DNA of 64,000 nucleotides from Streptomyces niveus (GTDB taxonomy: Bacteria > Actinomycetota > Actinomycetes > Streptomycetales > Streptomycetaceae): contig NZ_CP018047.1 in NCBI RefSeq assembly GCF_002009175.1, positions 1 to 64,000 on the forward strand, written 5' to 3'. Under the pieces are notes generated by a model. That model did not search any database and was not told the DNA's origin. It was given only the letters and a program-made list of their open reading frames with translations. The translations under genes were made by a program, and so were the position numbers. Shown here piece after piece: positions 31,321 through 60,976 of this stretch. Position 1 is the stretch's first letter. Each line of letters starts with the position of its first letter.

Positions 31321-31386
31321 TCAAGGCCCTTCTGCTCAGTTCGGCTGTACGGACCGTAGTGCGAGGCCAGAGACCCGACCCGGATG

Positions 31387-44977: not shown

Positions 44978-45797
44978 CCTTCTACGTCCCGCTCTGTCAC
45001 AGGGCTACGCGGTCCCCGCTTTCAACGTCGTCGACGGCGCGATGCTTGCAGGAGTGATCGACGCAGCTCACCGAGTGCAGTCGCCAGTCATCGTTCAGGT
45101 GTCCGAACGCATCGCTCGGGCGCTGGGGCCGGAGCACTTCAAGGTTGCGTTCGATCAACTGGTGAACGAGACAGGGGCGACGGCGGTCCTGCATCTCGAC
45201 CACTGCGGAGATCCGGTCTTCACCGAGAAGTGCCTGGAGGCGGGGTGGGATTCCGCCCTCTACGATGCCTCCGATCTCCCCTATGAGGAGGCTCTGCGCA
45301 CCACCGCAGAGGTAGTACGAACCGCCGATCGATACGGTGCGGAGATCGAGGGGGAGTTCGAGCGAATCGGGCGGGCGAGCCTCGCGGACGTGGTGATGGC
45401 TCGACCCGTCTCTGACTCCGTCGAGTTCATACGCAGGACCGGAGTCGCGTGCTTCAGTCCGGCGGTCGGGACCCTGCACGGTCGTTACGTGGCAGCCCCG
45501 AATCTCCAGCCGGAGCGCGTTGACGCAATTGTCCGGGCCTGCAGGATCCCTCAAGTGCTCCACGGTGCCACCGGCCTCGATGACGAGACACTTCAGGACT
45601 TCATCGGCCGAGGCATCGCGAAGATCAACTTCTCGACGGTATTGAAGGGTGTGCACACCGACTCCGTCCGCAGCCACGCGGCCGAACCCGGACGCGAACT
45701 GGAGCCGCTCAACCTCTTCCTGGACATTCGTGCGCGGGTAACCAAGGTGGTCGAGCACTACATGACGGTGCTGTGCAGCCACGGCAGGACCTCCTGA
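44964..45797 (+). CDS. Class II (zinc) aldolase, fructose-bisphosphate aldolase family
   Basis: 277 residues from ATG 44964, which lies inside the NRPS 3' end, so it is translationally coupled. It shows the family order: GYAVPAFNVVDGAMLAGVIDAA, LHLDHCGD (zinc His and catalytic Asp), GEFERIG in place of the usual EGELGxIGG, GTLHGRY (zinc His), LHGATGL in place of LHGGSG, and KINFST for the phosphate. The substitutions and short length fit a GatY/KbaY-like relative with another substrate. It would make or cleave a carbon bond next to a dihydroxyacetone-phosphate-like group. A phosphatase and a dehydrogenase gene follow directly. Confidence 0.78.
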   Translation: MSLTDLLRPALSQGYAVPAFNVVDGAMLAGVIDAAHRVQSPVIVQVSERIARALGPEHFKVAFDQLVNETGATAVLHLDHCGDPVFTEKCLEAGWDSALYDASDLPYEEALRTTAEVVRTADRYGAEIEGEFERIGRASLADVVMARPVSDSVEFIRRTGVACFSPAVGTLHGRYVAAPNLQPERVDAIVRACRIPQVLHGATGLDDETLQDFIGRGIAKINFSTVLKGVHTDSVRSHAAEPGRELEPLNLFLDIRARVTKVVEHYMTVLCSHGRTS

Positions 45798-46627
45798 TGC
45801 CGGCGTTGATCTTCGACTGCGACGGCGTCCTCATCGACACGGAGCAAGGCGGGCACCTGCGCGCATTCAACGAGATGTGGCAGGACTTCGAGGTGCCCTG
45901 GCAGTGGTCTCCCGAGCAGTACGCCACGAAGTTGAGGATCTCGGGTGGAAGGGAGCGGCTTTACAGCCTCAGATACGATCCGGCGTTCCGCGCCGTCTGG
46001 GAGGTGCCCGCCTCCCCAGTGGTCTGGGAACGTACAGTCTCGGCCTGGCATCGCCGGAAGACGGAGATCTTCCTGGAGATCATCCGAGGCGGCGAGGTGG
46101 CACCCCGCCCCGGTGTTCGCCGCCTGGCCAATGAGGCGGCACAGGCGGGATGGGGGCTGGCCATCGCCTCGGCCAGCGCGGCACAGTCCGTCCGGGCAGT
46201 GGTCGATCACGTCATGGGACCCGAACTCGCGCGCCGCTTCCATGTCCTGAGCGGTGAGTCCGTCAAGGCGAAGAAGCCAGCTCCTGAAGTCTACGAGCTC
46301 GCCGCGCGGGCCGTCGGTCAGAAGCCGTCGGAGTGCGTGGTCGTGGAGGACACCGGGAACGGTCTCGCGGCCGCCCGAGCCGCCGGGATGACGTGCCTGA
46401 TCACCCCCACGGGGCTCTCCGCCGCGCAGGACTTCTCCGGGGCCGTGCTCGTCATCAGCTGCCTCGGTGAACCGTCCACCGGACAGGGACGGGTCCTGGT
46501 CAATCCGCGCGGCGTACCAGTGGTCGACCACGTGAACCTCGGGCATCTCGGGCAGCTCCTGGGGCCCGCCCCCGCGGACTCACCGCACCGCTTTGTCACG
46601 TTCGCAGGCTCCAGACGCAGGAGCTGA
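45797..46627 (+). CDS. HAD-superfamily phosphatase (CbbY/beta-phosphoglucomutase-like)
   Basis: 276 residues from ATG 45797 (TGATG overlap with the aldolase stop), preferred over the in-frame start at 45773. Motif I LIFDCDGVLIDT, motif II AIASASAAQS, lysine motif KAKKPAPEVYELAA, motif III VVVEDTGNGLAAARAAG, and a helical cap of the C1 type. It should hydrolyse a small phosphorylated metabolite, plausibly the product of the coupled aldolase. The last 50 residues are extra and unassigned. HAD substrate cannot be read from sequence. Confidence 0.78.
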   Translation: MPALIFDCDGVLIDTEQGGHLRAFNEMWQDFEVPWQWSPEQYATKLRISGGRERLYSLRYDPAFRAVWEVPASPVVWERTVSAWHRRKTEIFLEIIRGGEVAPRPGVRRLANEAAQAGWGLAIASASAAQSVRAVVDHVMGPELARRFHVLSGESVKAKKPAPEVYELAARAVGQKPSECVVVEDTGNGLAAARAAGMTCLITPTGLSAAQDFSGAVLVISCLGEPSTGQGRVLVNPRGVPVVDHVNLGHLGQLLGPAPADSPHRFVTFAGSRRRS

Positions 46628-46700: not shown

Positions 46701-47834
46701 ATGCCGCAACGCACCATCATGATCGTGGGCCTGGGAAACATGGGAGGCCACGTCCTCGACATGATGCTCCGCAGGCCCGACAGCCCTCGCATCATCGTTG
46801 CCGGCCGCGACGCCACCCAGTTGGAGCGGCGAGCGAACCTCTCCGTACTCGCGGCGACTCATCTCGGCTACGAGCCGAACGTCGACACCGCCGTCCTGGA
46901 CGTCCACGACATCGACCGCACCGCCGAGACGCTGGCACGGCTGCGGCCGGACATCATCCTCAGCACCGTCAGTCTTCAGGCCTGGTGGGTGGTGACGGAG
47001 CTCCCGGCGCCGATTCTCGACGATCTGACTCAGGCCGAGATCGGCCCCTGGCTCCCCATGCAACTCACTCTGATTTACAAGCTGATGCAGGCAGTTCGTG
47101 CTTCTGGCATCGACACCAGGGTGGCGAACGCCGCTCTGCCGGACGCGACCCACAAGATCCTCAACTCCATTGGCCTCGCCCCGACCGTCGGCATCGGAAA
47201 TGTCGCCAACGCTGTCCCCGCGCTGCGCCGTGCGAGCGCGGAGGTACTCGGCGAGCCACTCTCGCGGGTGACGGTCCGGCTGGTCGCCGAGCACTTCGCC
47301 ACGACGCGCCTGCCTCGAAAGGGGCACGCCGATGGTGCCCCATTCCATTTCTCCGTCTACCGCGACGGCACCGACGTGACAGACACGCTCGACGTGGAGC
47401 AGGTCCTCAAGACGGCCGCGAGCCGCTACCCGCGTACCGGCGGAAAGGTGGGTGTGATGCTCACCGCCGCATCCGCTGTCACGGTGCTCGACGCGCTGAT
47501 GAGCGAGGACGAGGTCCTCGTTCACACGCCTGGTCCGCTGAGCCTGATCGGGGGCTATCCGGCCTGGGTCAGCAGCACCAACGTCTCCCTCGCCCTGCCC
47601 GACAGCCTGAGCCTGGAGGAGGCCAAGCGCATCAACGCCGGAGGACTCGTCCACGAAGGCATCGACGAGATCGGTGAAGACGGCTCGGTCCGCTACGGCG
47701 AGAAGCACATGTCCGTGATGAAGCGGACCCTGGGCTACGAGTGCTCCACCATGCGCCTGGAAGACACCGAGGCTCAGGCCGCGGAGATCGCCGCCCGCTA
47801 TGCGGAACTCGTCCGGCGCGTCCGCGCCGCCTGA
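46701..47834 (+). CDS. NAD(P)-dependent dehydrogenase, saccharopine/opine dehydrogenase-like
   Basis: 377 residues from ATG 46701 behind GGGAG; the longer frame starting at 46593 lies inside the phosphatase gene. The N-terminal Rossmann fold is clear (TIMIVGLGNMGGHVLDMMLRRP then IIVAGRD). The rest resembles saccharopine dehydrogenase-like proteins (VANAALPDATHKILNSIGLAPTVGIGNVANAVPALR). This group includes opine, carboxynorspermidine and homospermidine-type enzymes, which reduce an imine formed between an amine and a carbonyl. It would fit reductive coupling of the aldehyde or ketone from the aldolase-phosphatase pair with an amine (inference). Confidence 0.65.
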   Translation: MPQRTIMIVGLGNMGGHVLDMMLRRPDSPRIIVAGRDATQLERRANLSVLAATHLGYEPNVDTAVLDVHDIDRTAETLARLRPDIILSTVSLQAWWVVTELPAPILDDLTQAEIGPWLPMQLTLIYKLMQAVRASGIDTRVANAALPDATHKILNSIGLAPTVGIGNVANAVPALRRASAEVLGEPLSRVTVRLVAEHFATTRLPRKGHADGAPFHFSVYRDGTDVTDTLDVEQVLKTAASRYPRTGGKVGVMLTAASAVTVLDALMSEDEVLVHTPGPLSLIGGYPAWVSSTNVSLALPDSLSLEEAKRINAGGLVHEGIDEIGEDGSVRYGEKHMSVMKRTLGYECSTMRLEDTEAQAAEIAARYAELVRRVRAA

Positions 47835-47904: not shown

Positions 47905-48774
47905 ATGGAGATAACACCTCAGGCCGGCGGGAAGTTCGGTGTGACGGTTGAGGGATTCGACGCACTCACCTCGCCCGATGCGGACGTCGAGGCTGTCAAG
48001 CAGGTGGTCTACGCCCAGAAGATCGCTGTTCTGAAGGATCAGAAGCTGACCCCACAGGACTTCGTGGCTCTTGGGCGTCGCTTCGGTGAGCCCGAGGTGT
48101 ACTACCAGCCGATGTACCACCACCCCGAGGCCAAGGAGATCTTCGTATCTTCGAACGTGCCCGAGGACGGAGAACGGGTCGGTGTGCCCCAGACAGGCAA
48201 GTTCTGGCACTCCGACTATTCGTTCATGCCGCGGCCCTTCTCCCTCACCTTCATCTACCCGCAGGTGGTCCCCAAGAAGAAGCGGGGCACCTACTTCATC
48301 GACATGGGGCGCGCCTACCGGAAACTACCGGAGCGGTTGAAGGCTGCAGTGGCCGGCACCAGGGCGCGGCACAGCGCGAGTCGATATTTCAAGATTCGCC
48401 CGACGGACGTCTTCCGTCCCATCGGCGAGGTATTGGCGGAGATTCAGAAAGAGAGCCCGGACGTCTTCCACCCCACGGTGGTCGCACACCCTGTGACGGG
48501 CGAAGAGATCCTCTACATCAGCGAGGCCCTTGCGCACGAGCTGCTGGACAAGACAGGTGCGCCGCTGGACGACACCGTCCTGCCGGAACTGTTCGAAGTT
48601 ACCGGCCAGCGCGACCTGACGTTCACGCACGAGAACGTCCACTTGCAGACCTTCGAAGAGGGCGACCTGCTGATCTGGGACAACCGCAGCCTGATCCACC
48701 GTGCACTGCACACCGACAAACCTGAGCCGGCGGTGTCCTTCAGAGTCACCGTCATGGACAGCTACCGGTGGTGA
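47905..48774 (+). CDS. ScoE-like Fe(II)/2-oxoglutarate isonitrile-forming oxidase
   Basis: 289 residues from ATG 47905 behind AAGGAG. It has the TauD fold with iron ligands H102-x-D104 (KFWHSDYSF) and H265 (SLIHRALH). As I recall ScoE of isonitrile lipopeptide biosynthesis, its key residues lie here at a constant offset of 30: Y67, Y71, R127, K163, H269 and R280. Those enzymes oxidise an N-carboxymethyl-3-amino acyl substrate with loss of carbon dioxide to give the isonitrile. The ScoD-, ScoB- and ScoC-like genes follow, although separated by a CCR and a PKS gene. That context makes isonitrile formation the most likely role. Confidence 0.85.
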
Positions 48775-48830
48775 TCCACCGGTCCCAGGCACGCGATTCC
48801 ACGCCCGCTGTCGGGCAGAGAGGCAACTCC

Positions 48831-50156
48831 TTGGATGCCCTGGCCGAGGCCGTCATAGCAGGAGCGTCTCCCGCAGCGCTGCAACGGGAAGCTGTTCCCA
48901 TCTCCTACACAGCGGCGCACCTTCGCGCAGCCGACATCGGGATGTTCGACGGGTGCGAGGACGCGGATGTTCGGCGGTCGCTGCGTGTCGGTGGCGTTCC
49001 GATGCCGAGCCTCGCACCCGACGAGGTGCTCGTGGCCGTGATGGCGAGCTCGATCAACTACAACACCGTCTGGTCGGCGATGTTCCAGCCGATGCCGACC
49101 TTCAACTTCCTGAAGCGGTACGGCAAACGGGGAGGGGATGCCCTGCGCCATGACCAGCCTCACCACGTGGTCGGATCGGACGGCGCGGGGGTGGTCGTCA
49201 GGGCGGGGGCAGCCGTACGTCGCTGGAAAATCGGCGACCACGTGGTCGTCTCGTGCATTCAAGTGGACGACCATGAGCCGGCGACCCACGCGGACAGTGT
49301 GCTGGGAGCCGAGCAGCGCGCCTGGGGGTACGAGACGAACTTCGGAGGCCTCGCCCACTACACGGTGGTCAAGGCGAGCCAGCTCATTACCAAGCCGGGA
49401 CATCTGACCTGGGAGGAGGCAGCGAGCAACATGCTGACCGCCACCACCTCGTACCGGATGCTCATCGGTGACAAGGGAGCCCGCATAAAGGTCGGCGACA
49501 TCGTCCTCATCTGGGGAGCCACCGGCGGCTTGGGGGCGTTCGCGGTCCAGCTTGTGAAGCAGGCCGGCGGCATTCCCGTCGGTGTGGTCGGCTCCGAGGC
49601 GAAGGAACGCGCGCTGTCAGCTCTCGGCTGCGACGTCGCCATCAACCGTATGGAAATCGGCCTCACCGATGACGCCACACCCGAGCAGACGATTGAGCAG
49701 GGCAAGCGCCTCGGCCGGATTATCCGGAAGAAGGTCGGCGAGGATCCCCATGTGGCTTTCGACTACGTAGGGAGAGCCACGTTCGGCATCTCCGTGTTCG
49801 TCGTACGCCGCGGCGGAACCGTCGTGACCTGTGGATCCAGCACAGGGTTCCAGCATACGTACGACAACCGCTATCTCTGGATGAACTCGAAGCGCATTCT
49901 CGGAAGCCATGCGGCGAACCTCAACGAGCAGGCCGAGTGCGCGCGCCTGTTCAATCTGGGGAAAATCTCACCGGTGCTTTCTGCTGTATATCCGCTGGAC
50001 GAAGTAGGCGACGCCGCTCGACTGGTTCAGAAGAATGAGCACATGGGAAAGGTCGGCGTGCTCTGCATGGCACCGAAAGAGGGGATGGGAATAACCGACC
50101 AGGAACTGAGGGACAGCATAGGCGAGGCACGGATGAACCCGCTCAGGGCTGTATAG
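48831..50156 (+). CDS. ccr: Crotonyl-CoA carboxylase/reductase
   Basis: 441 residues if started at TTG 48831 (AGAGAGG upstream), the usual length; GTG 48768 is an in-frame alternative coupled to the oxidase stop. MDR-fold reductase with SSINYNTVW, WGYETNFGGLAHY, LIWGATGGLGAFAVQLV, FDYVGRATFGISVFVVRRGGT and KRILGSHAANL, which includes the Asn, Glu and His positions tied to CO2 binding in this family. It reductively carboxylates an enoyl-CoA with NADPH to give ethylmalonyl-CoA or another alkylmalonyl-CoA, a PKS extender. It lies between the ScoE-like and ScoD-like genes, which is unusual for an isonitrile cassette. Confidence 0.88.
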   Translation: MDALAEAVIAGASPAALQREAVPISYTAAHLRAADIGMFDGCEDADVRRSLRVGGVPMPSLAPDEVLVAVMASSINYNTVWSAMFQPMPTFNFLKRYGKRGGDALRHDQPHHVVGSDGAGVVVRAGAAVRRWKIGDHVVVSCIQVDDHEPATHADSVLGAEQRAWGYETNFGGLAHYTVVKASQLITKPGHLTWEEAASNMLTATTSYRMLIGDKGARIKVGDIVLIWGATGGLGAFAVQLVKQAGGIPVGVVGSEAKERALSALGCDVAINRMEIGLTDDATPEQTIEQGKRLGRIIRKKVGEDPHVAFDYVGRATFGISVFVVRRGGTVVTCGSSTGFQHTYDNRYLWMNSKRILGSHAANLNEQAECARLFNLGKISPVLSAVYPLDEVGDAARLVQKNEHMGKVGVLCMAPKEGMGITDQELRDSIGEARMNPLRAV

Positions 50157-50193
50157 ATCCGGATCGCGTCGCCCACGGGGAGAGTGCAAAGAC

Positions 50194-50745
50194 ATGACAA
50201 CCAATCAGGCTCAGTCGACGGGCGCTACGGTGCTGAACACCGACCAGATGCTGCTGGACGGCGTGCTCGAGCCGTACAAGGAGAACTGCCGCTATCTGAA
50301 GACCGCGAGGGTGGAGCGGGACGCACCGGAGGACGGCTCCCTGGCCGCCCACTGCACCTTCGAAATTCCGGAGTCCTGCTACATTGCGGACACCGGGCAT
50401 TTCAACTCGGTGGAGTTCAACATCTGCTACAACCAGATGGCCTACTACCTCATCGCCAAAGCCGTCGAGGCGTCACTCATCGAGCCATTCAACTCCTGGA
50501 GCATGAAGGACTACTGGGAGCGTCAACTCCCGAACATCCTTATCGCCGACTTCCGGAGCACGTTCCGCAGCCCTGTCCGGAGCGCTTCCTTCTCGGGGAC
50601 ATTGCAGTTCGTCCGGGTCACGCAGCGAAGCGGTGACCGGCCCATGGTGCTCATCGACACAACATGCCGGTACACCGACACAACGGGCGGGCGTGCCGAA
50701 GGCGCCGTCAAGCTGGTCATCACCAATCCTCCGTCGCGTCCCTGA
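50194..50745 (+). CDS. FcoT/ScoD-like hot-dog thioesterase
   Basis: 183 residues from ATG 50194 behind GGGGAGAG. Its hot-dog pattern (CTFEIPESCYIADTGHFNSVEFNICYNQMAYYLIAKAVE and FRSTFRSPVRSASFSGTLQF) matches the Rv0098 (FcoT)/ScoD type. In isonitrile lipopeptide pathways ScoD adds glycine to an alpha,beta-unsaturated acyl-ACP by a Michael-type reaction and hydrolyses the thioester. It directly precedes the free ACP gene, as in the known cassettes. This is the second member of the isonitrile set. Confidence 0.8.
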   Translation: MTTNQAQSTGATVLNTDQMLLDGVLEPYKENCRYLKTARVERDAPEDGSLAAHCTFEIPESCYIADTGHFNSVEFNICYNQMAYYLIAKAVEASLIEPFNSWSMKDYWERQLPNILIADFRSTFRSPVRSASFSGTLQFVRVTQRSGDRPMVLIDTTCRYTDTTGGRAEGAVKLVITNPPSRP

Positions 50746-50756
50746 AGGAGTCTACC

Positions 50757-51074
50757 GTGCCTTTCACCCCCGAAGACGAGCAGCGGGTACATTCCCTGCC
50801 GAAGGCTGAGCGGGAAATCGTCCTGGAAAGGATCGTGCTTCGGGAGTTCAGAGTCCAGCTACTCATGGAGGAATCCGATGAGCTTTCTGTCGATGAGAAC
50901 TACTTCGACCTCGGACTCGGCTCTTTACAGCTCACCGAGGTGAAGGAGCATCTGGAACAGAGCTTCGGATGCGAAGTCGACACGACCCTCCTGTTCAACA
51001 ACCCCACCATCTCGCAGCTCTTGGAGCATCTCGATGAACTCATCACCCGAAGCGCCGGAGCCGACCGTGAATGA
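50757..51074 (+). CDS. Stand-alone acyl carrier protein (ScoB-like)
   Basis: 105 residues from GTG 50757 with AAGGAG 8 bases upstream. The phosphopantetheine serine is in YFDLGLGSLQLTEVKEHLEQSFGCEVDTTLLFNNPTISQLLEHL. Length and position next to the ScoD-like gene fit the carrier that holds the acyl chain while glycine is added. Its 3' end overlaps the PKS start, so the two proteins should be made in similar amounts. Confidence 0.85.
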   Translation: MPFTPEDEQRVHSLPKAEREIVLERIVLREFRVQLLMEESDELSVDENYFDLGLGSLQLTEVKEHLEQSFGCEVDTTLLFNNPTISQLLEHLDELITRSAGADRE

Positions 51075-54000
51075 GACATACCGCGATGCCCCCATAGCGA
51101 TCGTGGGGATGGGTCTCCGCTTCCCCGGGAGCAACAGCACGCCGCGGAAGTTCGCGAAATTCCTGAGGGAAGGGCGCTCCGGCATTACGGAGCTGCCAGC
51201 AGGTCGGCTGGGTCAAGGAGTTCCCGACGATGTGCAAACGGACGCCGGCTACCTGGACACACTGGAGGAGTTCGACGCGGGCTTCTTCAACATCTCGCCC
51301 AGAGAGGCGGCCTTCGTCGACCCGCAACACCGGCTGACGCTGGAAACCGCTTGGGAAGCCCTGGAGGACTCGGGGATCGACCCGACGTCGCTTCGCCATG
51401 GGGACACCGGCGTGTACGTCGCTGTAACCGGCATGGACTACGCCATGGAAATAGCCCGGCTCCCGACGGACCAGGTCGAGTTGTACGCGGGCACCGGCAT
51501 GTTCCACTGCGGCGCCTCGGGCCGAGTGTCGTACTTCCTGGGCCTCCGCGGTCCGAGCATGAGTGTCGACGGTGCCTGCGCGTCGTCCCTCGTGGCCGTG
51601 CACCTGGCGGTTCAGGGGCTACGCATGGGCGAATGCGGCGTTGCCCTGTGCGGCGCGGCCAACACCATCAGCGATCCCGCATACCCGGTGATGGCCAGCC
51701 GGTCCGGAGTGCTGGCGGGTGACGCCCGGTGCAAAACCTTCGACGACGCGGCCGACGGCTATGTGCGCGGCGAGGGCGTTGCCATGATCGTGCTCAAGCG
51801 ACTCGATGACGCGCGGAGAGCCGGTGACAGGATCCTCGCCGTCATCCGCGGGTCGGCGGTACGTCAGGACGGAGAGAGCGCCGCCCTTATGGCGCCGAAC
51901 GGCAAAGCCCAGGCGCTGCTCATGCGAGCCGCCCTCAAGAACGCGGGACTCACGGCCGCCGACATCCAGTACGTCGAGGCCCATGGGACCGGCACGGCTC
52001 TGGGCGACCCGATCGAGATCGCTGGAATCACCGAGGTCTTCTCCGGATCTCACTCCACCCAGAACCCTGTGATCGTGGGGTCCGTCAAGACGAACCTCGG
52101 TCACCTGGAATCGACTGCGGGGATGGCGGGCCTCATCAAAACCGTCTCGCAACTCCGGGACGGCACCATCTATCCCCACCTCAACTACACGACCCCGTCA
52201 CGCAAAATCCCCTGGGACCGTGTGCCGGTGAAAGTCCCTGTCGAGTTGACACCTTGGACAGGCGGCACTCGTCGCGCGCTCGTCAATTCCTATGGGGCCA
52301 CGGGAACCATCGCTTCCGTCGTACTGGAGGAGGCGGGCGCCGAAGCCGCCGGCGACACCGACAATGGGGAGGCGGACACATCCGCGGTCTTCACCTTGTC
52401 GGCCAAGACCGCGAACTCCCTGCGGCGGCAACTCGACGCCTACGCGGAGTTCATGACCGGCAAGACGGACCTCGACCTGGCAGACGTCTGCTACACATCC
52501 AACGTCGCTCGTGCGCATCATGCCTGGCGCGTTTCCGCGTCCGTGTCGAGCGCATCAGACCTGACTCAGTTCATCGAGCGTCAGCGGACCCAGATCGAGC
52601 GGCTGCGCTCGACCTCCGGCAGGAAGAACGTCGCCCTGATGTTCTCCGGAGGTGGCTCGCAGTACGCCGGGATGGGCCGGTCGCTCTACCAGAGGATCCC
52701 GGTCTTCAGACAGCACATCGACAAGTGCGGCGACCTCTTCGCCCCTCTCGTCGGCCACTCCCTGAGAGAGGAGATCCTCGGGGACATCTACGAAGGGTCG
52801 ATACCAACCGGCGCGGGCGTTCTGACGGCGCGACTCTTCTCGCTGCAATACGCCCTCGCCAAGCTGTGGCTCTCAGTCGGCGTGAGGCCCACTGCCCTGA
52901 TCGGCCACAGCCTCGGAGAGATAGTGGCCGCGACGGTCGCCGGCATCTTCACCTTGGAAGACGCGGTGCGGCTGGTGGCTTTTCGCGGAGAGCTCCTGGA
53001 CAAGACCTCCGCAGGCTCCATGGCGGCCGTCGAAGCCTCCCGTGACGAGATGGCACGCATCCTCGAGAGCTACCCCGACACCTCCCTCGGAGCGGTCAAC
53101 GGTCTCAACAAGTGTGTGATCTCCGGCGGCAGCGATTCAGTCGCCGAGATCGTGACGTTACTCCAGGCCCGGGGAACCAAGGTCAAGCACCTACGGGTCC
53201 CGGTCGCCTCACATTCCCCACTGATGGACGAGATCGCCGACTCCTACCGCGCTGAGCTGGAGAAACTCCGGTTCGGCAAACCGGAGTTCGCCATCGCATC
53301 CACGGTCCTGGGCAAAATGGCACAGCCGGGCGACATGACCACTCCGGATTACTGGATGCGCCACCTCCGTGACACCGTGAACTTCTCCGAGGCGATGCGC
53401 GCCATCGAGGGCCGAGGACAGCATGTATTCCTCGAAGTCGGTCCCGGAGCGGAACTCATCGGTATGGGCAGAGAGTGCGCGGGCGACAGGGGCCATCTGT
53501 GGCTGGGCAGCATGCACCGAAACGACCCGTCCGGGAACACGACGCAACTCTCGGTCTCCCGCCTGTACGGCGCCGGCCTGCCCATCGACTGGAGCGCCTG
53601 GCACAGCGGAGCCCGTGGCACGCGAGTGCCCCTCCCCCTCTACGCGTTCGACCGTAAGCCGTACTGGCTCCCGGCCCCCGCCACAGACACCGGCATCGAC
53701 CCGTCGGACCAGTTCCACCCTCTCCTCGGGGCCGAGATATCGGATAAGGCGGATCGGGCTGCCGGAACCAGAACCTTCGAGTCCAGCATCTCGTCCACAC
53801 AGCCCGCCTACCTCGCCGAACACGATCTCAACGGAACCCCGGTCTTCCCCGGCACCGGCTTCATCGAGATGCTGCTGGCGGTCCAAGACGCGCTCTTCGG
53901 AGAGACAACCCGGCCGATCGAGGGACTCAAGTTCCACGAACCGCTCTTCTTCTCCGAGAATCCCGTGGGCTTACGCACCCGTGTGCACCAGGAGTCGGAC

Positions 54001-54966
54001 CGCTCCCTCAGCGTGGACATCATCAGTCGGCTCGGGTCCGCGGAACAGTCAGTGGACCGTCTGCACGTGAGCGCGCGGATAGGTTCCGGCGTCAAGGGCG
54101 TGGTGCGGAGCGGTCCGCGTACAACAGCCGACCGACTTCGTTCCGGCCCGACCCCGTCAGAAGTGGCCGAACTGTCCCTGACTACGGCGGACTTGAGCGC
54201 GTACTTCAGGCAGCACGGCGCGGGCTACGGACCCACCTTCCGAACTCTTCGGCAGGCGACAAGGTACGCGGGCGCGACGGTCGTCGGCGAGATCGAGGGA
54301 CGCCGGGCCGCGCCCGGGGACATCCTGCACCCCGCTCTCCTGGCCGGCGCCCTCCAGAGCGCCGCCGGTCTCTTCAAGGACCGCCTCGGTGACGATGTCG
54401 CGTTCATCGCGTCGGGCTCCGACGAGGCCCAACTCTTCCGCAAGCCCCGCGGTCGGTCCTTGCGCAGCGTCCTGCGAGTGGTGCACAGCGAAGAAGAGCA
54501 CATCACTGCGGACCTCGCCCTCTTCGACGAGGACGACAACGCTGTGTTCTGCATGACCGGTCTCTCGTTCCAGCGAGTGTCGACAGCGCCTCCCGGCCTC
54601 GGAGCCGGGACATCGGCCGCCCGAGCGCAGGGCGAGGAGGAGCGCTCCAGCGAGTCCGGGACGTTCGATGTGAGGGAGTGGAACGAACTGCCTGATGAAC
54701 AGCGTCGGAAATCAGCGAGCGCCTTTCTCTTGGTACGTGTAGCGGACCTCCTCCACTTCCAGGACCCCGGCGAAATCCCCGACGGCGCCTCATTCTTCGA
54801 ATTGGGCATGGACTCGCTTATCACCGTGAGGCTCAAGAACGTGGTGGAGAACGCGTTCCGCATTCCTCTGGAAGTGCGGACCATCTTCGATAACCCCACC
54901 ATTGACGCCTTGGCCGAAGTGCTGGTCACGAAGGCGTCAGCCGGCCTGTCGAAGAATCGAGCGTGA
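51067..54966 (+). CDS. Type I PKS module, KS-AT-DH-ACP (no ketoreductase)
   Basis: 1299 residues from GTG 51067 (GGAG upstream); ATG 51034 is also in frame. Ketosynthase: Cys171 in DGACASS, His in EAHGTGTALGD and NLGHLES. Acyltransferase: GHSLGE active site, with VASH where malonyl enzymes have HAFH, so a substituted extender such as ethylmalonyl-CoA is plausible. Dehydratase: the HDLNGTPVFPG histidine is present, but the Asp motif reads HPALLAGALQ, with Ala in place of Asp. ACP: ELGMDSL near the end. No KR or ER is found. It is likely fed by the CCR gene 0.9 kb upstream. Confidence 0.88.
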   Translation: MNETYRDAPIAIVGMGLRFPGSNSTPRKFAKFLREGRSGITELPAGRLGQGVPDDVQTDAGYLDTLEEFDAGFFNISPREAAFVDPQHRLTLETAWEALEDSGIDPTSLRHGDTGVYVAVTGMDYAMEIARLPTDQVELYAGTGMFHCGASGRVSYFLGLRGPSMSVDGACASSLVAVHLAVQGLRMGECGVALCGAANTISDPAYPVMASRSGVLAGDARCKTFDDAADGYVRGEGVAMIVLKRLDDARRAGDRILAVIRGSAVRQDGESAALMAPNGKAQALLMRAALKNAGLTAADIQYVEAHGTGTALGDPIEIAGITEVFSGSHSTQNPVIVGSVKTNLGHLESTAGMAGLIKTVSQLRDGTIYPHLNYTTPSRKIPWDRVPVKVPVELTPWTGGTRRALVNSYGATGTIASVVLEEAGAEAAGDTDNGEADTSAVFTLSAKTANSLRRQLDAYAEFMTGKTDLDLADVCYTSNVARAHHAWRVSASVSSASDLTQFIERQRTQIERLRSTSGRKNVALMFSGGGSQYAGMGRSLYQRIPVFRQHIDKCGDLFAPLVGHSLREEILGDIYEGSIPTGAGVLTARLFSLQYALAKLWLSVGVRPTALIGHSLGEIVAATVAGIFTLEDAVRLVAFRGELLDKTSAGSMAAVEASRDEMARILESYPDTSLGAVNGLNKCVISGGSDSVAEIVTLLQARGTKVKHLRVPVASHSPLMDEIADSYRAELEKLRFGKPEFAIASTVLGKMAQPGDMTTPDYWMRHLRDTVNFSEAMRAIEGRGQHVFLEVGPGAELIGMGRECAGDRGHLWLGSMHRNDPSGNTTQLSVSRLYGAGLPIDWSAWHSGARGTRVPLPLYAFDRKPYWLPAPATDTGIDPSDQFHPLLGAEISDKADRAAGTRTFESSISSTQPAYLAEHDLNGTPVFPGTGFIEMLLAVQDALFGETTRPIEGLKFHEPLFFSENPVGLRTRVHQESDRSLSVDIISRLGSAEQSVDRLHVSARIGSGVKGVVRSGPRTTADRLRSGPTPSEVAELSLTTADLSAYFRQHGAGYGPTFRTLRQATRYAGATVVGEIEGRRAAPGDILHPALLAGALQSAAGLFKDRLGDDVAFIASGSDEAQLFRKPRGRSLRSVLRVVHSEEEHITADLALFDEDDNAVFCMTGLSFQRVSTAPPGLGAGTSAARAQGEEERSSESGTFDVREWNELPDEQRRKSASAFLLVRVADLLHFQDPGEIPDGASFFELGMDSLITVRLKNVVENAFRIPLEVRTIFDNPTIDALAEVLVTKASAGLSKNRA

Positions 54967-54967
54967 G

Positions 54968-56551
54968 ATGACCGATACTTACGAAACACGGCAGCCACTC
55001 AAGACCCTGGTGGAAACGGCCCGGAGGAATGCCGCTCGGTTTCCGGAGAAGAAAGCCGTCGTGTGCGACGGCCGCTCCTTGACCTACGGCCAACTGGACA
55101 CAGAGAGCGATCGCACAGCCTGTGCACTCGGAGTGGCAGGCCTCGACAAAGGGGCGCGGGTCGCCTACCTGGGCAAGGAATCGGAAAGTTACTACGACGT
55201 CCTGTTCGGTTGTGCGAAGGCCGGCGCCGTTCTCGTACCGATCAACTGGCGACTCACCTCGGCGGAGATCGAGCACATCCTCAGCGACTCCACCGCACAA
55301 CTGATCTTCGTGGAGCAGGAATTCCTCGCGACGGTCGAACAGATCACCGCCCCTCTCCCCGCGCTCAGCCACACAGTCGTCCTTGACGGCCCTGGCGGCC
55401 CAGGAGGGGGATTCCAGAGCTGGAAAGCCCGGAACGAAGGCGTGCTCGAGACCCCAGTGGCCGATAGTGGCGATCCCGTCGTCCAGATCTACACCAGCGG
55501 CACAACTGGCCTGCCGAAGGGTGTGGTCCTCGCCCACCGCAGCTTCTTCGCGGTTCCCGACATGCTGGAACGCGGCGGCCTGGACTGGATCGACTGGAGG
55601 AAGGACGACAAGAGCCTGATCGGTGTGCCCGGCTTCCACATTGGAGGGCTGTGGTGGGCCGTGCAAGGCCTCAACGCCGGCGTCACGAACATTGCCGTCA
55701 GTACCTTCGTCAGCGGCGAGGCACTCAGGTTGATACGCGACATGGGCATCACCACCACATGCATGGTGCCCGCCATGCTCCACATGTTGACTTCCGAGCC
55801 GAGCGCCTCACCCGAAGCATTCCACACCCTGCGCAAGGTGGTCTACGGAGGATCTCCGATCTCCGAATCGCTGCTGGAACGCTGTCATACCCTCATGAAC
55901 TGCGACTTCGCTCAGATCTACGGCCTGACAGAGACAGGCAACACCGCCGTCTGTCTGCCCCCGGAAGCGCACTCGATAGGCGGCAGCCTCCTCAAGGCCG
56001 CCGGACGTCCGTACCCCGGGGTCGACATCGTCGTGCTCGACGAGCGAGGCGCGGAAGTGAAGACCGGCACAGTCGGGGAGATCTGCGTCAGGACTCCCGC
56101 GCGCATGGTGGAGTACTGGGGCCTGCCCAACGCGACGGCGGAGACCCTCAGGAACGGCTGGGTCCACACCGGAGACGCCGGATACATGGACGACGGATAC
56201 GTCTACATCTGCGACCGCCTCAAGGACGTTGTCATCGTGGCCGGTGAAAATGTTTATCCGGCGGAAGTCGAGAAGGCGCTCGAACAACTCCCCGCCGTAG
56301 CCGAGGCCGCTGTCATCGGTATCCCGGATGAACGGTGGGGTGAGCGTCTCCACGCGGTCGTCGTCCTCAGGGACGGCGAGACGGCCACCCGCCGTGAACT
56401 CGCACTCGACCTGCGCGGCTCCCTGGCCACCTTCAAGATCCCGAGCAGCTGGGAGTTCGCAGACCACGTGCCGCGCAACCCCAGCGGAAAGATCCTGAGG
56501 CGCCGTTTGCGCGAGCGCTTCTGGAGCGGCCGGGAGAGGAAGGTCGGCTGA
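54968..56551 (+). CDS. Acyl-CoA/ACP synthetase (ScoC/FadD10-like)
   Basis: 527 residues from ATG 54968, one base after the PKS stop; upstream in-frame codons lie inside the PKS. ANL-family ligase with VVQIYTSGTTGLPKGVVLAHRS, YGLTETGNTA, GWVHTGDAGYMDDGYVYICDR and NPSGKILRRRL (catalytic Lys). It lacks a downstream carrier domain. In isonitrile cassettes this enzyme adenylates a fatty or enoic acid and loads it on the stand-alone ACP. It closes the isonitrile block, and the methionine-salvage genes begin 84 bp later. Confidence 0.82.
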   Translation: MTDTYETRQPLKTLVETARRNAARFPEKKAVVCDGRSLTYGQLDTESDRTACALGVAGLDKGARVAYLGKESESYYDVLFGCAKAGAVLVPINWRLTSAEIEHILSDSTAQLIFVEQEFLATVEQITAPLPALSHTVVLDGPGGPGGGFQSWKARNEGVLETPVADSGDPVVQIYTSGTTGLPKGVVLAHRSFFAVPDMLERGGLDWIDWRKDDKSLIGVPGFHIGGLWWAVQGLNAGVTNIAVSTFVSGEALRLIRDMGITTTCMVPAMLHMLTSEPSASPEAFHTLRKVVYGGSPISESLLERCHTLMNCDFAQIYGLTETGNTAVCLPPEAHSIGGSLLKAAGRPYPGVDIVVLDERGAEVKTGTVGEICVRTPARMVEYWGLPNATAETLRNGWVHTGDAGYMDDGYVYICDRLKDVVIVAGENVYPAEVEKALEQLPAVAEAAVIGIPDERWGERLHAVVVLRDGETATRRELALDLRGSLATFKIPSSWEFADHVPRNPSGKILRRRLRERFWSGRERKVG

Positions 56552-56635
56552 ATGCCCAGCAACGTCCCGACCGGCCGTTCAATCCTCGCGCCGTGCGCCA
56601 CCGCCGTCGCGGGCCCTTAGAAGGTGAGGATGCGG

Positions 56636-58201
56636 ATGAGCACATCAATTGACCAGAACCATGGCTTCTCTCTGTACTGGCAGGAGAACGCCATCATGGC
56701 AGTGGATCAACGCGCGCTCCCGCACGCGTTCGAGCTGCTGCGTCTGGAGAGCGTCGACGAACTGATCGCCGCGATACGGACGCTCGCCGTCCGAGGGGCT
56801 CCCGCGGTCGGCCTTGCGGGCGCCTTAGGGGTCGCCCTCTCCGCCCAGACCCATCAGACGGAGGGCACGGTGGACGAAGGCGCCGTGCGAGCTGACGCCG
56901 CTCGCCTGGCCGCCGCCAGGCCCACGGCCGTCAACCTCGCTTGGGGGGTGGGACGGGCCCTTGAGCAAGTACCGAACGGGCCCCACGCCGTGCTGGACGA
57001 AGCGATGAGGATGGTGACCGAGGACGCGGCGATCAACTCCGCCGCCGTCGCGCGCACCACAGAGCTGGTCGAGTCTCTCGTACCGGACAGGCCGCTGCGC
57101 CTGTTGACCCACTGCAACACGGGCCGGCTCGCCACAGCCGCTGTGGGAACCGCTCTGGGAACCATCCTTGAGCTCTCCCGCCGCGGTCGCGTGAAGGAGG
57201 TGCTGGTCGACGAAACCCGCCCTCTGCTTCAGGGCTCCCGGCTCACCGCCTGGGAGCTCGGCCAGGCTGAGGTGCCTTACCGGATCTGCGTCGACTCGGC
57301 GGCCGCCGCCGCGATGTCGAGGGGGTTGGTCGACTGCGTCCTCGTCGGAGCCGACCGCATCACCGCCAACGGCGATACGGCCAACAAGATTGGCACCTAC
57401 GGCCTCGCGGTCGCCGCGGCCCGGCACGGGATCCCCTTCATCGTTGTCGCACCGGAGTCTTCCTGGGACATGGCTCTGCCCGACGGCAACGCGATCGACG
57501 TCGAAGAACGCGACGCCGCGGAGGTCACCGGTTTCGCAGGAGCCGGGGCAGCGCCTTCGGACGCCGGTGCCTTCAACCCCGCGTTCGACGTGACTCCGGG
57601 GGAGCTGATCACGGCGATCGTGACTGAAAACCGCGTAGTGCGACCGGGCCGCGATTCCCGACTGCGGCACGGCGAGGTGCTCCGGACCCGCATCGGCGCA
57701 CTGCTGGAGGCGTTTCCCGACCACCCCAGGGCCGGTGTCGTCTGCCAAGACCTCTCCGCGCTCTATACGGAGCCCGGTCTGCTGAACGATGTGTACGAAC
57801 AGGTGCGGGAGCACTTCTCCGGAGAGTTCGACCGCATCGTCGCTGTGGAATCCCGAGGTTTCATCCTGGGTGCGGTCCTGGCGGTTCGCGCCGGGGTCCC
57901 GCTGACCCTCGCACGCAAGGCGGGCAAGCTACCCGGACACGTTCACTCGGTCGGCTACTCGCTGGAATACGGGGACGATCGCCTCGAAATCCGCCACGGT
58001 GCCGTGGCGCCGGGTGACCGAGTGCTGTGCGTGGACGACGTCCTCGCCACCGGCGGCACACTTCTCGCGGCAGTGGATCTGGTCGAGGCAGCTCAGGCCG
58101 AAGTCGTCGGCCTGGTCACCCTGGTCGCGCTCTCCGGTCTGCCCGGACCCGAACGGCTGGAACGCTACGAGCTCCTCTCCCTGTGCGAGGTGGCGGCATG
58201 A
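56636..58201 (+). CDS. mtnA: Fusion of methylthioribose-1-phosphate isomerase and adenine phosphoribosyltransferase
   Basis: 521 residues from ATG 56636 (AAGGTGAGG upstream); GTG 56624 and ATG 56630 are alternatives. Residues about 1-345 are MtnA: VRGAPAVGLAGALG, catalytic Cys in CNTGRLAT, catalytic Asp in GADRITANGDTANKIGTY. Residues about 350-521 are a type I adenine phosphoribosyltransferase: FDRIVAVESRGFILGAVLA and the PRPP loop VLCVDDVLATGGTLL. MtnA opens methylthioribose-1-phosphate to the ribulose form; Apt returns the released adenine to AMP. Joining both in one chain handles both products of MtnP. Coupled to mtnB by an ATGA overlap. Confidence 0.9.
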   Translation: MSTSIDQNHGFSLYWQENAIMAVDQRALPHAFELLRLESVDELIAAIRTLAVRGAPAVGLAGALGVALSAQTHQTEGTVDEGAVRADAARLAAARPTAVNLAWGVGRALEQVPNGPHAVLDEAMRMVTEDAAINSAAVARTTELVESLVPDRPLRLLTHCNTGRLATAAVGTALGTILELSRRGRVKEVLVDETRPLLQGSRLTAWELGQAEVPYRICVDSAAAAAMSRGLVDCVLVGADRITANGDTANKIGTYGLAVAAARHGIPFIVVAPESSWDMALPDGNAIDVEERDAAEVTGFAGAGAAPSDAGAFNPAFDVTPGELITAIVTENRVVRPGRDSRLRHGEVLRTRIGALLEAFPDHPRAGVVCQDLSALYTEPGLLNDVYEQVREHFSGEFDRIVAVESRGFILGAVLAVRAGVPLTLARKAGKLPGHVHSVGYSLEYGDDRLEIRHGAVAPGDRVLCVDDVLATGGTLLAAVDLVEAAQAEVVGLVTLVALSGLPGPERLERYELLSLCEVAA

Positions 58202-58848
58202 CGATTCTTGACAAGCGGACCGAACTCACCACCGCGGGTGCCTCCCTCGCGAGCTTCTCCCGAGACCTGTACGCACGCGGCTGGATGCCCGGCACCTCAG
58301 GCAATCTCTCCGTACGTATCCCGGTCGGCCACGGAGAAACGGCCCTGATCACGGCCAGCGGACGCGACAAGGGCAGCCTCACCGAAGACGACATGGTCGC
58401 CGTGCACGCCCAGACCGGTGACGTCCTGGTCCCCGGGTCGCTGAAAGCCTCGGCGGAGACATCGATCCACGCGGCGGTCTACGCGGCGACCGAAGCCCGA
58501 GCGGTCATCCACGTCCACTCGCCCTACGCCACGGTCATGGCCTGCCGCACCGGCGAATCCGACCGCACCACCTCCCTCCGGCTCGAACGGTTCGAGCTGC
58601 TCAAGGGACTCGGCCTCGACGACCCCTCACGCACAGAGATCCCGGTCTTCCGCAACTGGCCCCAGGTTCAGATGATCGCCGATGAGGTGGACGAGCATCT
58701 TGGCACCCATCCCGACGCCGCTCCGGGACTGCTGATCGCCGACCACGGCATCACCACGTGGGGCAAGGACCTCGCCCAGGCACGCAATCGGCTGGAGTGC
58801 TTCGAAGCCATCTGCCAGTTGCTCGTGCTCGGCGCCATGGACAGCTGA
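58198..58848 (+). CDS. mtnB: Methylthioribulose-1-phosphate dehydratase
   Basis: 216 residues from ATG 58198, overlapping the MtnA-Apt stop. Class II aldolase/adducin fold with GWMPGTSGNLSVR, ITASGRDKGSLTEDDMV, the zinc pair IHVHSPYATVM and a distal His in LLIADHGITTWG. It removes water from methylthioribulose-1-phosphate to give the diketo intermediate. Length is standard. Second gene of the salvage block; MtnD follows after 24 bp. Confidence 0.88.
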   Translation: MTILDKRTELTTAGASLASFSRDLYARGWMPGTSGNLSVRIPVGHGETALITASGRDKGSLTEDDMVAVHAQTGDVLVPGSLKASAETSIHAAVYAATEARAVIHVHSPYATVMACRTGESDRTTSLRLERFELLKGLGLDDPSRTEIPVFRNWPQVQMIADEVDEHLGTHPDAAPGLLIADHGITTWGKDLAQARNRLECFEAICQLLVLGAMDS

Positions 58849-58872
58849 CCCACTCAAGAAGGACGGGAAACC

Positions 58873-59451
58873 ATGACACTGCTACAGGTAATGCCGCAGG
58901 ACGCGCCTCAGGATGTGCTGCTGCGCACGCGGGACGGCGCCCGCATCGCCACCCTGTTGAAGGAGCTCGGCGTCGAGTACGGGCACTGGGAACTGCGCGC
59001 CACGGTGACCGCGGACACCACGCAGGAAGAGCTGCTGGACAGCTACCGGGCTGAGATCGACGCCCTGCGCGCCCGCGACGGCCTCCTCGTGGTCGACGTG
59101 GCGCAGCTCCTCCCCGCGCCGGGGCCGGAGTGGGAGGAGCGCGCCGCGAAGGCTCGTTCCACCTTCCTGGAGGAGCACCGGCACGCCGAGGACGAGGTGC
59201 GTTTCTTCGCCCACGGAACCGGCTGCTTCTACCTCCACATCGAAGGCAAGGTCTACGCCGTCGTGTGCGAAGCGGGCGATCTGCTCTCCGTCCCGGCCGG
59301 CACCCTCCACTGGTTCGACATGGGCCCCAGGCCGGAGTTCGCGGCCATCCGCTTCTTCAAGGAAGAGGACGGCTGGGTGGGCGACTTCACCGAGGATCCG
59401 ATCGCCCAGGGGTTCCCACGCCTGGACTCGCTCCTGGCAGGCGATCAGTGA
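58873..59451 (+). CDS. mtnD: Acireductone dioxygenase
   Basis: 192 residues from ATG 58873 behind AAGGACGGG. Cupin fold with metal ligands in EEHRHAEDEVRFF (HxHxxxE) and the later His in AGTLHWFDMG, plus the conserved GTGCFYLHIEGKVYAVVCEAGDLLSVPAGT. With iron it oxidises the acireductone to the 2-keto-4-methylthiobutyrate precursor of methionine; with nickel the same protein makes a dead-end product. Third gene of the salvage block. The stop overlaps the MtnC start. Confidence 0.9.
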   Translation: MTLLQVMPQDAPQDVLLRTRDGARIATLLKELGVEYGHWELRATVTADTTQEELLDSYRAEIDALRARDGLLVVDVAQLLPAPGPEWEERAAKARSTFLEEHRHAEDEVRFFAHGTGCFYLHIEGKVYAVVCEAGDLLSVPAGTLHWFDMGPRPEFAAIRFFKEEDGWVGDFTEDPIAQGFPRLDSLLAGDQ

Positions 59452-60161
59452 ATCCTCAGGCGGTCGTCCTCGACATCGAAGGAACGGTCGGATCGGCCAG
59501 GCACGTCCAGGACGTTCTGTTCCCCTACGCCCGGGAGCGGCTGCCGCAGTGGTTCGCCGAGCATCGTGGCACGGAGCGGGCTGAACGATTGCTCGCGGAG
59601 GTCAGGCATGACCTCCGGGCCGGGGATTTGAACGAAGCCGGTGTGGTCGCGGCCCTCTTGGCCTGGACCGATGAGGACATAAAGGCGCCTGCGCTCAAGG
59701 AGATTCAGGGGTGGATCTGGGCGGCCGGCTATGCGGAGGGCTCCCTCACGGGACACGTCTATGCGGAGGTTCCCCACGTACTGCGCCGCTGGGCCGAGTC
59801 CGGCGCCTCGCTCTACACCTACTCCTCCGGCTCGGTCGCGGCGCAGGTGAACTGGTTCGCCCACACCACGTACGGCGATCTCACACCACTGCTGCGTGGG
59901 TACTTCGACCTGACCACCGCGGGGAGCAAGATGTACGCCGCTTCGTACCGGCGGATCTCGGAAGTCATCCAAGTACCGGCGGACGCAACGCTGTTCCTCA
60001 GTGACTCGGCAGAGGAGCTGGACGCCGCGACCGAGGCGGGCTGGCGCACGGTCGGTGTACGCCGGCAGGACGATCCACGCCGCTGTCCCATGCCCCGGCA
60101 CCTGACGGTCCGTTCGCTCGATGAACAGGAACTGGCCCAATTGATGAAAGGAACAGAGTGA
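59448..60161 (+). CDS. mtnC: Enolase-phosphatase E1
   Basis: 237 residues from GTG 59448 (GTGA overlap). HAD-fold enolase-phosphatase: motif I VVLDIEGTVGSARHVQDVLFPYARERL, motif II LYTYSSGSVAAQ, lysine in TTAGSKMYAASYRRI, motif III TLFLSDSAEELDAATEAG. It enolises and dephosphorylates the diketo-phosphate made by MtnB to give the acireductone. The order MtnA-Apt, B, D, C, P is tight, each stop touching the next start or close to it. Together they cover MTA to the 2-keto acid; only the final transaminase is not obvious. Confidence 0.9.
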   Translation: MNPQAVVLDIEGTVGSARHVQDVLFPYARERLPQWFAEHRGTERAERLLAEVRHDLRAGDLNEAGVVAALLAWTDEDIKAPALKEIQGWIWAAGYAEGSLTGHVYAEVPHVLRRWAESGASLYTYSSGSVAAQVNWFAHTTYGDLTPLLRGYFDLTTAGSKMYAASYRRISEVIQVPADATLFLSDSAEELDAATEAGWRTVGVRRQDDPRRCPMPRHLTVRSLDEQELAQLMKGTE

Positions 60162-60976
60162 GGGCGACCAAAGAGGAGATGCGGGCGGACATAGGCGTCG
60201 TGGGAGGAAGCGGCTTCTACGAGCTCCTCACCGACGCCGAGCAGGTGGGGGTCGACACGCCCTACGGAGAGCCGTCCGACCTGGTGTCCGTGGGAAGCGT
60301 CGGTGGCCGGCGTGTGGCCTTCCTGCCAAGACATGGGCGCCGGCACACGCAGGCGCCGCACACGATCAACTATCGAGCGAACGTATGGGCTCTGCGCTCG
60401 CTCGGCGTTCGCCGAATACTGGCACCCTGCGCTGTCGGCTCGCTGCGAAGGGAACTGGGTCCGGGCGCGCTCGTCGTCCCCGACCAACTGGTCGACCGCA
60501 CCAGCGGCCGGGTGCAGACCTTCTACGACGAAGGCGCCGTCCATGTGTCCTTCGCCGACCCGTACTGCGGGCAGGGGCGCACGGCCGTCCTGAAGGCTGC
60601 CGCAGACGCGGGGGACGGTGCCCACGACGGCGGCACAATGGTCGTCGTCGAAGGTCCGCGGTTCTCGACCCGGGCCGAATCCCAGTGGTTCGCCGCAGCT
60701 GGCTGGAGCCTCGTCAACATGACCGGGCACCCCGAGGCCGTGCTCGCCCGGGAACTGGGACTGTGCTACACATCCGTCGCCCTGGTGACAGACCTCGACG
60801 CGGGCATCGACGCGGATGACAGCGTTTCCCAGGAAGACGTCTTCAAGGTCTTCGGTGAGAACACCGAGCGCCTGCGCAATGTGATTCTGGAGGCGGTGAA
60901 GCTGCTCCCTGAGCGGCGGGAGTGCCCCTGCGGCCATGTTTTGGACGGGATTCCCCTTCCGTTCGATCTGCCCTGA
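60158..60976 (+). CDS. mtnP: 5'-methylthioadenosine phosphorylase
   Basis: 272 residues from GTG 60158, overlapping the MtnC stop. PNP/MTAP family II: IGVVGGSGFYELL, FLPRHGRRHTQAPHTINYRAN (phosphate binding), EGPRFSTRAESQWF, NMTGHPEAVLARELGLCY, and TDLDAGID with both Asp residues that favour 6-aminopurines in MTA phosphorylases. It cleaves methylthioadenosine to adenine and methylthioribose-1-phosphate, the substrates of the two halves of the MtnA-Apt fusion. Last gene of the salvage block. Confidence 0.88.
   Translation: MRATKEEMRADIGVVGGSGFYELLTDAEQVGVDTPYGEPSDLVSVGSVGGRRVAFLPRHGRRHTQAPHTINYRANVWALRSLGVRRILAPCAVGSLRRELGPGALVVPDQLVDRTSGRVQTFYDEGAVHVSFADPYCGQGRTAVLKAAADAGDGAHDGGTMVVVEGPRFSTRAESQWFAAAGWSLVNMTGHPEAVLARELGLCYTSVALVTDLDAGIDADDSVSQEDVFKVFGENTERLRNVILEAVKLLPERRECPCGHVLDGIPLPFDLP

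Follow-up and report, generated by a model that had tools for sequence, protein, structure and literature searches.

Why would an operon for isonitrile biosynthesis carry, among its own genes, a carboxylase/reductase and a polyketide synthase (PKS)? The question is raised by a locus of Streptomyces niveus (GCF_002009175.1, contig NZ_CP018047.1), which we analysed in a window of 64,000 nucleotides that opens a single-contig genome of 7.99 Mb. Open reading frames (ORFs) and profile scans place six genes on the plus strand at 47905-56551, in the order ScoE-type oxidase, crotonyl-CoA carboxylase/reductase-like enzyme (CCR), FcoT/ScoD-type thioesterase, stand-alone acyl carrier protein (ACP), a PKS with ketosynthase (KS), acyltransferase (AT), dehydratase (DH) and ACP domains, and acyl ligase. 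Adjacent genes overlap or are spaced by at most 40 bases, an operon-like arrangement. A first-pass annotation had located the four isonitrile proteins, the CCR and the PKS correctly, but the limits that it drew at 47905 and 56551 do not hold: in profile scans of the flanks the cluster reaches well past both, with nonribosomal peptide synthetase (NRPS), pyridoxal phosphate (PLP) enzyme, aldolase and salvage genes around it (Table 1). The best explanation we can offer, and one to which we give an even chance, is a hybrid cluster in which one round of extension with a long alkylmalonyl unit turns a 3-isocyano acyl-ACP into a beta-keto isonitrile, with methylthioadenosine (MTA) recycled.

With 463 bits the oxidase clears the cutoff of 400 of the curated ScoE family NF049937, and in a search of the Protein Data Bank (PDB) its match to the ScoE structure 6dch reaches 417 bits and that to TauD 77 bits, which rules out an ordinary TauD enzyme and bears out the ScoE-like assignment of the first-pass annotation. 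Eight of its residues (Y66, Y71, H102, D104, K163, R165, H265 and R280), the equivalents of ScoE Y96, Y101, H132, D134, K193, R195, H295 and R310, are invariant among 28 aligned sequences; they include the iron ligands. As described in part of one study, ScoE variants substituted at Y96, Y101 or R195 form no product, and K193 and R310 contact the substrate (PMC7949033); all five are present in the window oxidase. When 111 ScoE sequences are placed in a tree, the oxidase falls inside a 19-member clade with a support of 0.999, and by sequence it reads as a true ScoE-type isonitrile-forming enzyme. The protein encoded from 50194 is FcoT/ScoD-like, as had been predicted, with 205 bits to PF10862 (FcoT; cutoff 27) and, in the PDB search, 172 bits to 5wsy, which we take to be SAV606, and 93 bits to Rv0098. 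Enzymes of the CmiS1/SAV606 type add glycine to 2-enoates en route to isonitriles, according to part of PMC11284099. Later starts are possible for the stand-alone ACP, for example at 50757, and the ligase, whose ORF opens at 54902 with an ATG at 54968 as the likelier start, is ~49-61% identical to the full-length ligase matches in other ScoE loci. The enzyme set for a beta-isocyano acyl chain thus appears complete, as first proposed, with homologues of ScoE, ScoD, the ACP and the ligase all found.

The second gene had been annotated as a crotonyl-CoA carboxylase/reductase; its placement between oxidase and thioesterase stands, but its type does not. The protein exceeds the cutoff of TIGR01751 (529 bits against 378.6), and its nearest solved relative is CinF at 621 bits, versus 461 bits for the crotonyl CCRs, with an identity to CinF of 66.5% over the 206 aligned positions counted. 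At two aligned positions that we take to determine the substrate pocket, the window enzyme has Ala/Ala, whereas the second CCR of the same genome (1.29 Mb, locus L118) has Ile/Phe. Of the Asn/Glu/His/Phe set of the CO2 site, the Asn, Glu and His are retained. The CCR is CinF-like, of a medium-chain rather than a crotonyl type, so a long alkylmalonyl-CoA is expected over an ethylmalonyl unit and is its likely product; the crotonyl-CoA/ethylmalonyl reading is ruled out by the similarity to CinF and the small pocket residues. CinF, the octenoyl-CoA carboxylase/reductase of cinnabaramide, shares sequence and small pocket residues with the window enzyme, and MatL of matlystatin ranks with it as the closest CCR system, the likeness being one of CCR type. 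MatL is 66% identical to CinF and is proposed, in part of PMC5719088, to convert octenoyl-CoA to hexylmalonyl-CoA. The comparison with CinF and MatL is at the level of the CCR, and the window enzyme differs from them in sitting inside an isonitrile cassette. No paper linking isonitriles with crotonyl-CoA carboxylase was found in the literature covered; since this was open-licence papers only, the absence proves little.

The KS-AT-DH-ACP protein also lies where it was first placed, between ACP and ligase, and its DH has kept the fold but not the catalytic Asp. There is no ketoreductase (KR), only 46 residues separating DH and ACP, and the DH retains its His with the Asp replaced by Ala, so that both marks of a reducing module, a KR and a DH His/Asp dyad, are missing. 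The AT carries VASH where malonyl ATs have HAFH, motifs whose meaning is treated in parts of PMC6273641, PMC6164871 and PMC5331325. An alkylmalonyl-extended isonitrile chain, the scaffold first suggested for this locus, remains the best reading of the CCR together with a non-HAFH AT, with a long alkylmalonyl unit in place of ethylmalonyl. We gathered relatives of the PKS in a protein search that scores the best 7996 candidates by shared words and aligned 48 sequences, 13 of which form a clade. All 13 lack a KR (38-52 residues from DH to ACP), keep the DH His with Ala or Gly in place of Asp, and carry (V or C)ASH in the AT. The combined loss of KR and DH Asp is found in 13/13 clade members and 0/35 other relatives, all 35 of which have Asp or Glu at the DH position, six of them being KR-less as well. 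Two clade members need a caveat, P0225 being a fragment without KS and P0231 lacking the KS active-site stretch; where genera are named they are Streptomyces, Nocardia and Microbispora. Chance decay of the window PKS is unlikely because 13/13 share the same KR-less, Asp-less form.

The predicted DH domain has a normal DH fold (predicted local distance difference test, pLDDT, 88), and the 50 matches listed in its fold search are PKS dehydratases or pieces containing one, among them a CurK D1169N entry titled as an inactive mutant. In the part of PMC5331325 cited here, the His is proposed to deprotonate C2 and the Asp to stabilise the leaving hydroxyl, and only the His is shown to be essential; part of PMC6273641 regards as inactive a DH whose motifs, Dxxx(Q/H) among them, are altered. 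The window DH is probably dead for dehydration because its catalytic Asp is absent, and a role in C2 enolisation, cyclisation or epimerisation is speculative. The form is a conserved one, and it poses a clear enzymological question.

The operon is part of a longer run of genes, co-directional and densely packed from the first NRPS (NRPS1) to MtnP, with a widest gap of 120 bases. The adenylation (A) domain of NRPS1 has the code D-M-L-(A or Q)-(A or C)-G-L-V-W, and that of NRPS2 has DLYNMSLIW, which is listed for Cys in part of PMC12283262. Between them lies a PLP enzyme of 510 amino acids, for which the matches listed include 94 relatives, 61 with E <1e-56 and then a gap to 1e-17. Its model (pLDDT 90) has an aminotransferase fold, and aminotransferases make up most of the 50 matches listed in a fold search, the rest being C-S lyases and further PLP enzymes in small number, with nothing specific; the 1-aminocyclopropane-1-carboxylate (ACC) synthases in the PDB match it weakly (23-33 bits). 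At E 1e-40 it was found only in the window's genome in Streptomyces genome sets of 199 and 394, and at E 1e-20 it had no match in plasmids, where ScoE had three distant matches. Four distant PLP relatives (P0174, P0175, P0179 and P0180) are fused to HAD-type hydrolases; the HAD-IIA protein of the window is separate (31387-32427). The saccharopine-dehydrogenase-like protein had no PDB match up to E 1.

Downstream of the ligase, MtnA, MtnB, acireductone dioxygenase (ARD), MtnC and MtnP stand together at 56630-60976, a complete methionine-salvage set, four of them over NCBIfam cutoffs and ARD recognised by Pfam (NCBIfam models gave no match to it at E 0.001 or at 0.01). Judged by these assignments, the set would return MTA to a precursor of methionine and make AMP from the adenine. 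MtnA is fused to adenine phosphoribosyltransferase (APRT), and this one protein could deal with both of the compounds that MtnP releases. The genome has a second MTA phosphorylase copy at 4.70 Mb. Relatives of MtnB occur in 73/382 Streptomyces genomes, that of the window included, and at an identity of at least 44% there are 20 loci in 19 other Streptomyces genomes; within 20-kb stretches ARD is present in 19/20 and MtnC or MtnP in 18/20. Only at one of these (L146) does a single MtnA match span the whole MtnA-APRT fusion, and at another (L147) a gene for S-adenosylmethionine (SAM) synthetase lies upstream of MtnA. The 20 loci would fit SAM-recycling units. PLP enzymes that release MTA have been described (PMC7277169 and PMC10491745, each in part), and the window PLP enzyme may likewise release MTA from SAM. 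The bacterial ACC synthases GnmY and Orf30 are SAM-consuming PLP enzymes of fold type I, also beside NRPS genes, with MTA as the by-product to be expected; any kinship to the window enzyme is suggested by the salvage operon only.

In the pathway we favour, the ligase would load a short or medium 2-enoate onto the stand-alone ACP, ScoD would add glycine at C3 and free an N-carboxymethyl-3-amino acid, ScoE would oxidise and decarboxylate this to a 3-isocyano acid, and the ligase would reload it onto the ACP, a series predicted from the homologous Sco enzymes. The CinF-type CCR, judged by similarity and pocket residues, would convert a ~C8 2-enoyl-CoA to a long alkylmalonyl-CoA such as hexylmalonyl-CoA; the xASH-type AT would take this unit, and the KS would extend the isonitrile acyl-ACP once. 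With the KR absent and the DH Asp lost, the product would stay an alpha-alkyl-beta-keto isonitrile thioester, which the His-only DH might, speculatively, enolise, epimerise or cyclise. The NRPS pair would add a residue and cysteine, the terminal thioesterase (TE) would release the product, and the salvage set would recycle MTA, most simply that released from SAM by the PLP enzyme in making an NRPS amino acid.

How exceptional the arrangement is was judged from 80 named ScoE loci scanned for the window's proteins, with at most 10 kb on each side and some cut short by contig ends (L002, L006, L067 and L081 among them). The first-pass annotation contrasted the locus with published clusters, in which the cassette genes adjoin one another; a PKS insertion is nevertheless recurrent, as 16/80 loci have a PKS directly in the cassette, and a unique PKS insertion is ruled out. 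These loci, of which L008, L013, L065 and L080 are examples, share the order ScoE-ScoD-(ACP)-PKS with the window, with a ligase after it in some. These 16 PKSs (1769-2283 amino acids; L012 is cut by its contig end at 1557) differ from that of the window, with an intact DH Asp in 16/16, a stretch of KR or enoylreductase-KR size before the ACP in 15/16 (L012 excepted), a KR confirmed by Pfam in 3/3 scanned, and AT motifs of xASH in six and HAFH in ten. They fit the making of a ScoD substrate, and it is on them that a rather unlikely alternative leans, namely that the CCR and PKS come into play ahead of isonitrile formation, the PKS building an alpha-branched 2-enoyl chain on which ScoD and ScoE then work. 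The window PKS and all 12 of its closest relatives, lacking KR and DH Asp, would need both activities in trans for this, and Pfam scans detected no KR of the short-chain dehydrogenase/reductase type among the cluster genes. No CCR was found in the 16 loci. A CCR near ScoE is rare, being present in 2/80 loci (L028 and L062, from Streptomyces catenulae and Streptomyces sp. MP131-18, near PKS genes), where it has the same small-pocket-residue type as the window enzyme (Ala/Gly and Ala/Ala, respectively); a CCR between ScoE and ScoD is seen only in the window among the loci compared. Two draws of Streptomyces genomes, the second apparently a subset of the first, yielded only the window's own ScoE at >65% identity.

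Several observations weigh against extension of the isonitrile chain by the CCR and PKS with MTA recycling. The thioesterase scores 221 bits to the ScoD model NF049938, under its cutoff of 250, and codon 50386-50388 gives Ala65 where 74/76 relatives have Asp. The CCR has a Tyr where three other aligned CCRs have Phe, and pocket residues leave its chain length unproved. There is no evident route from PKS to NRPS, as the PKS has no TE and NRPS1 only a remnant of a condensation (C) domain, and none of the characterised proteins is closely related to the PLP enzyme. At the nearest named locus (L002, ScoE 82% identical) a helicase-like gene lies upstream, and the contig ends ~80 bases past ScoE with no recognisable CCR and no other cluster gene. 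Only 3/10 named Streptomyces with a ScoE at least 73% identical also have a KR-less PKS among the matches listed; in one, NPDC054787, the two are on contigs of separate sizes, and the seven other strains are not in the PKS matches listed. Finally, the PLP, aldolase, saccharopine-dehydrogenase-like, MtnA and MtnB genes are found near ScoE in 0/80 other loci, a view from which ARD, MtnC and MtnP would be out of reach.

This last absence speaks for two or more separate products, a classical isonitrile chain made by ScoE, ScoD, the ACP and the ligase, and a Cys-derived compound from NRPS, PLP and salvage genes of an unrelated pathway, as do the salvage operons of other Streptomyces, which have no adjoining ScoE and in one case follow the SAM synthetase gene. 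The unbroken run from NRPS1 to MtnP argues against the division, and so do apparent linkages of PLP and ScoE genes, and we regard it as improbable. Equal contig sizes and strain names, the basis of all four linkages, suggest that ScoE, PLP enzyme and PKS share one contig in Streptomyces sp. DSM 42041 (71391 bases), ScoE and PKS one in NPDC055607 (87776 bases), PLP enzyme and PKS one in NPDC126933 (1954246 bases), and ScoE and PLP enzyme a further contig of 11091 bases.

The window shares a ScoE-type oxidase, an FcoT/ScoD-like thioesterase, ACP and ligase in one operon with the isonitrile lipopeptide clusters (ScoA-E, SfaA-E, nrp/Rv0097-0101), which we take to be defined by an NRPS of condensation-adenylation-thiolation-reductase (C-A-T-R) order for Lys/Orn (the domain order of ScoA) beside a cassette of uninterrupted genes. 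Its arrangement differs from those compared: the CCR and the KS-AT-DH-ACP protein interrupt the cassette; salvage, PLP and aldolase genes are added; NRPS2 has a Cys code and ends in a TE; and an A-T-R protein, without C, is past the salvage genes. The latter, an A-PCP-reductase (PCP, peptidyl carrier protein) at 61691-64738 by its likely start (ORF 61406-64738; L166:691-3738), crosses the window end and has the code D-T-E-D-V-G-A-I-T, presumably for a basic residue. This code and the ScoB-E homologues would point to a standard cluster for an isonitrile lipopeptide, its CCR a stray and its PKS decayed, but that is very unlikely, given a PKS form shared by 13 proteins (three genera among those with names) and a reductase protein that lacks a C domain, is ~36% identical to the NRPSs of ScoE loci and starts ~0.7 kb past MtnP. 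Beyond it (L166:5430-20000) lie genes for an O-methyltransferase, an acyl-CoA dehydrogenase, a P450 and a PKS-NRPS (ligase-KS-AT-ACP-luciferase-like-C).

The GC content is 0.652 across 36.7-61 kb and 0.702 across 1-22 kb, and because of this difference the cluster may have been imported. The stretch 1-22000 (GC 0.70) has strong GC and AT skew and encodes a DUF317 (SPDY) protein at 19429-20844, and an OrfB_IS605/TnpB-type protein (21857-23416, minus strand) marks the left edge of the low-GC region. A comparison of the opening 30 kb of the contig with its closing 20 kb gave no match that would mark an inverted repeat at the ends. One of the two adjacent ATP-grasp ligases (33648-36118, minus strand) weakly matches the C-terminal domain of an L-amino acid ligase.

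Table 1. Genes of the predicted cluster and its borders, with positions in the window
Feature	Position	Strand	Basis
NRPS1: truncated C remnant (by eye), A, PCP	36717..39251	+	Pfam, translation, A-domain code
PLP enzyme, fold type I, rare family, candidate SAM (MTA-releasing) enzyme	39372..40904	+	Pfam, relatives, model
NRPS2: condensation (heterocyclisation-like by eye only), A (Cys code), PCP, TE	40961..44977	+	Pfam, code
Class II fructose-bisphosphate-type aldolase	44964..45797	+	PF01116 214 bits; below cutoff of each NCBIfam model listed
HAD phosphatase	45797..46627	+	Pfam
NAD(P)-binding saccharopine-dehydrogenase-like protein	46701..47834	+	PF03435 26.9 bits, cutoff 25.1
ScoE-type Fe/2-oxoglutarate isonitrile-forming oxidase/decarboxylase	47905..48774	+	NF049937 463 bits; 6dch 417 bits; catalytic residues
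CinF-type enoyl-CoA carboxylase/reductase, predicted for long alkylmalonyl-CoA	48768..50156	+	TIGR01751, CinF similarity, pocket residues
ScoD/FcoT-type thioesterase, predicted Michael addition of glycine	50194..50745	+	PF10862, NF049938, PDB matches
Stand-alone ACP (ScoB-like)	50664..51074	+	PF00550 53.5 bits; LGLGSL motif
PKS KS-AT-DH-ACP: no KR, AT VASH, DH His kept, Asp to Ala	51034..54966	+	Pfam, alignments, DH model
Acyl-CoA/ACP ligase (ScoC-like)	54968..56551 (ORF from 54902)	+	Profile matches; identity to ligases of ScoE loci
MtnA fused to adenine phosphoribosyltransferase	56630..58201	+	TIGR00512 372 bits, NF002636 167 bits, both over cutoff
MtnB methylthioribulose-1-phosphate dehydratase	58198..58848	+	TIGR03328 174 bits, over cutoff
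ARD acireductone dioxygenase (MtnD)	58873..59451	+	PF03079 99.7 bits
MtnC enolase-phosphatase	59448..60161	+	TIGR01691 206 bits, over cutoff
MtnP methylthioadenosine phosphorylase	60158..60976	+	NF005876 445 bits, over cutoff
Two ATP-grasp ligases, divergent from NRPS1, possibly in cluster	33648..36118	-	Pfam
Two MFS transporters and HAD-IIA phosphatase with GNAT-like tail, possibly in cluster	30127..33679	-	Pfam

The products described for ScoE pathways, in part of PMC9600254, are linear-chain diisonitrile lipopeptides that bind copper. We tentatively propose, as a doubtful but specific idea, a cluster family for branched beta-keto isonitriles, in which the conserved PKS, its DH reduced to the His and put to a new, non-dehydrating use, would add hexylmalonyl-type units in one extension of a 3-isocyano acyl chain, and the chain would be linked to a Cys-derived peptide and to a SAM-derived residue from a new PLP enzyme that has its own MTA recycling. 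A long alkylmalonyl branch on the isonitrile chain would, if true, widen this product class, and the PLP enzyme with its dedicated salvage operon points to a SAM-consuming step.

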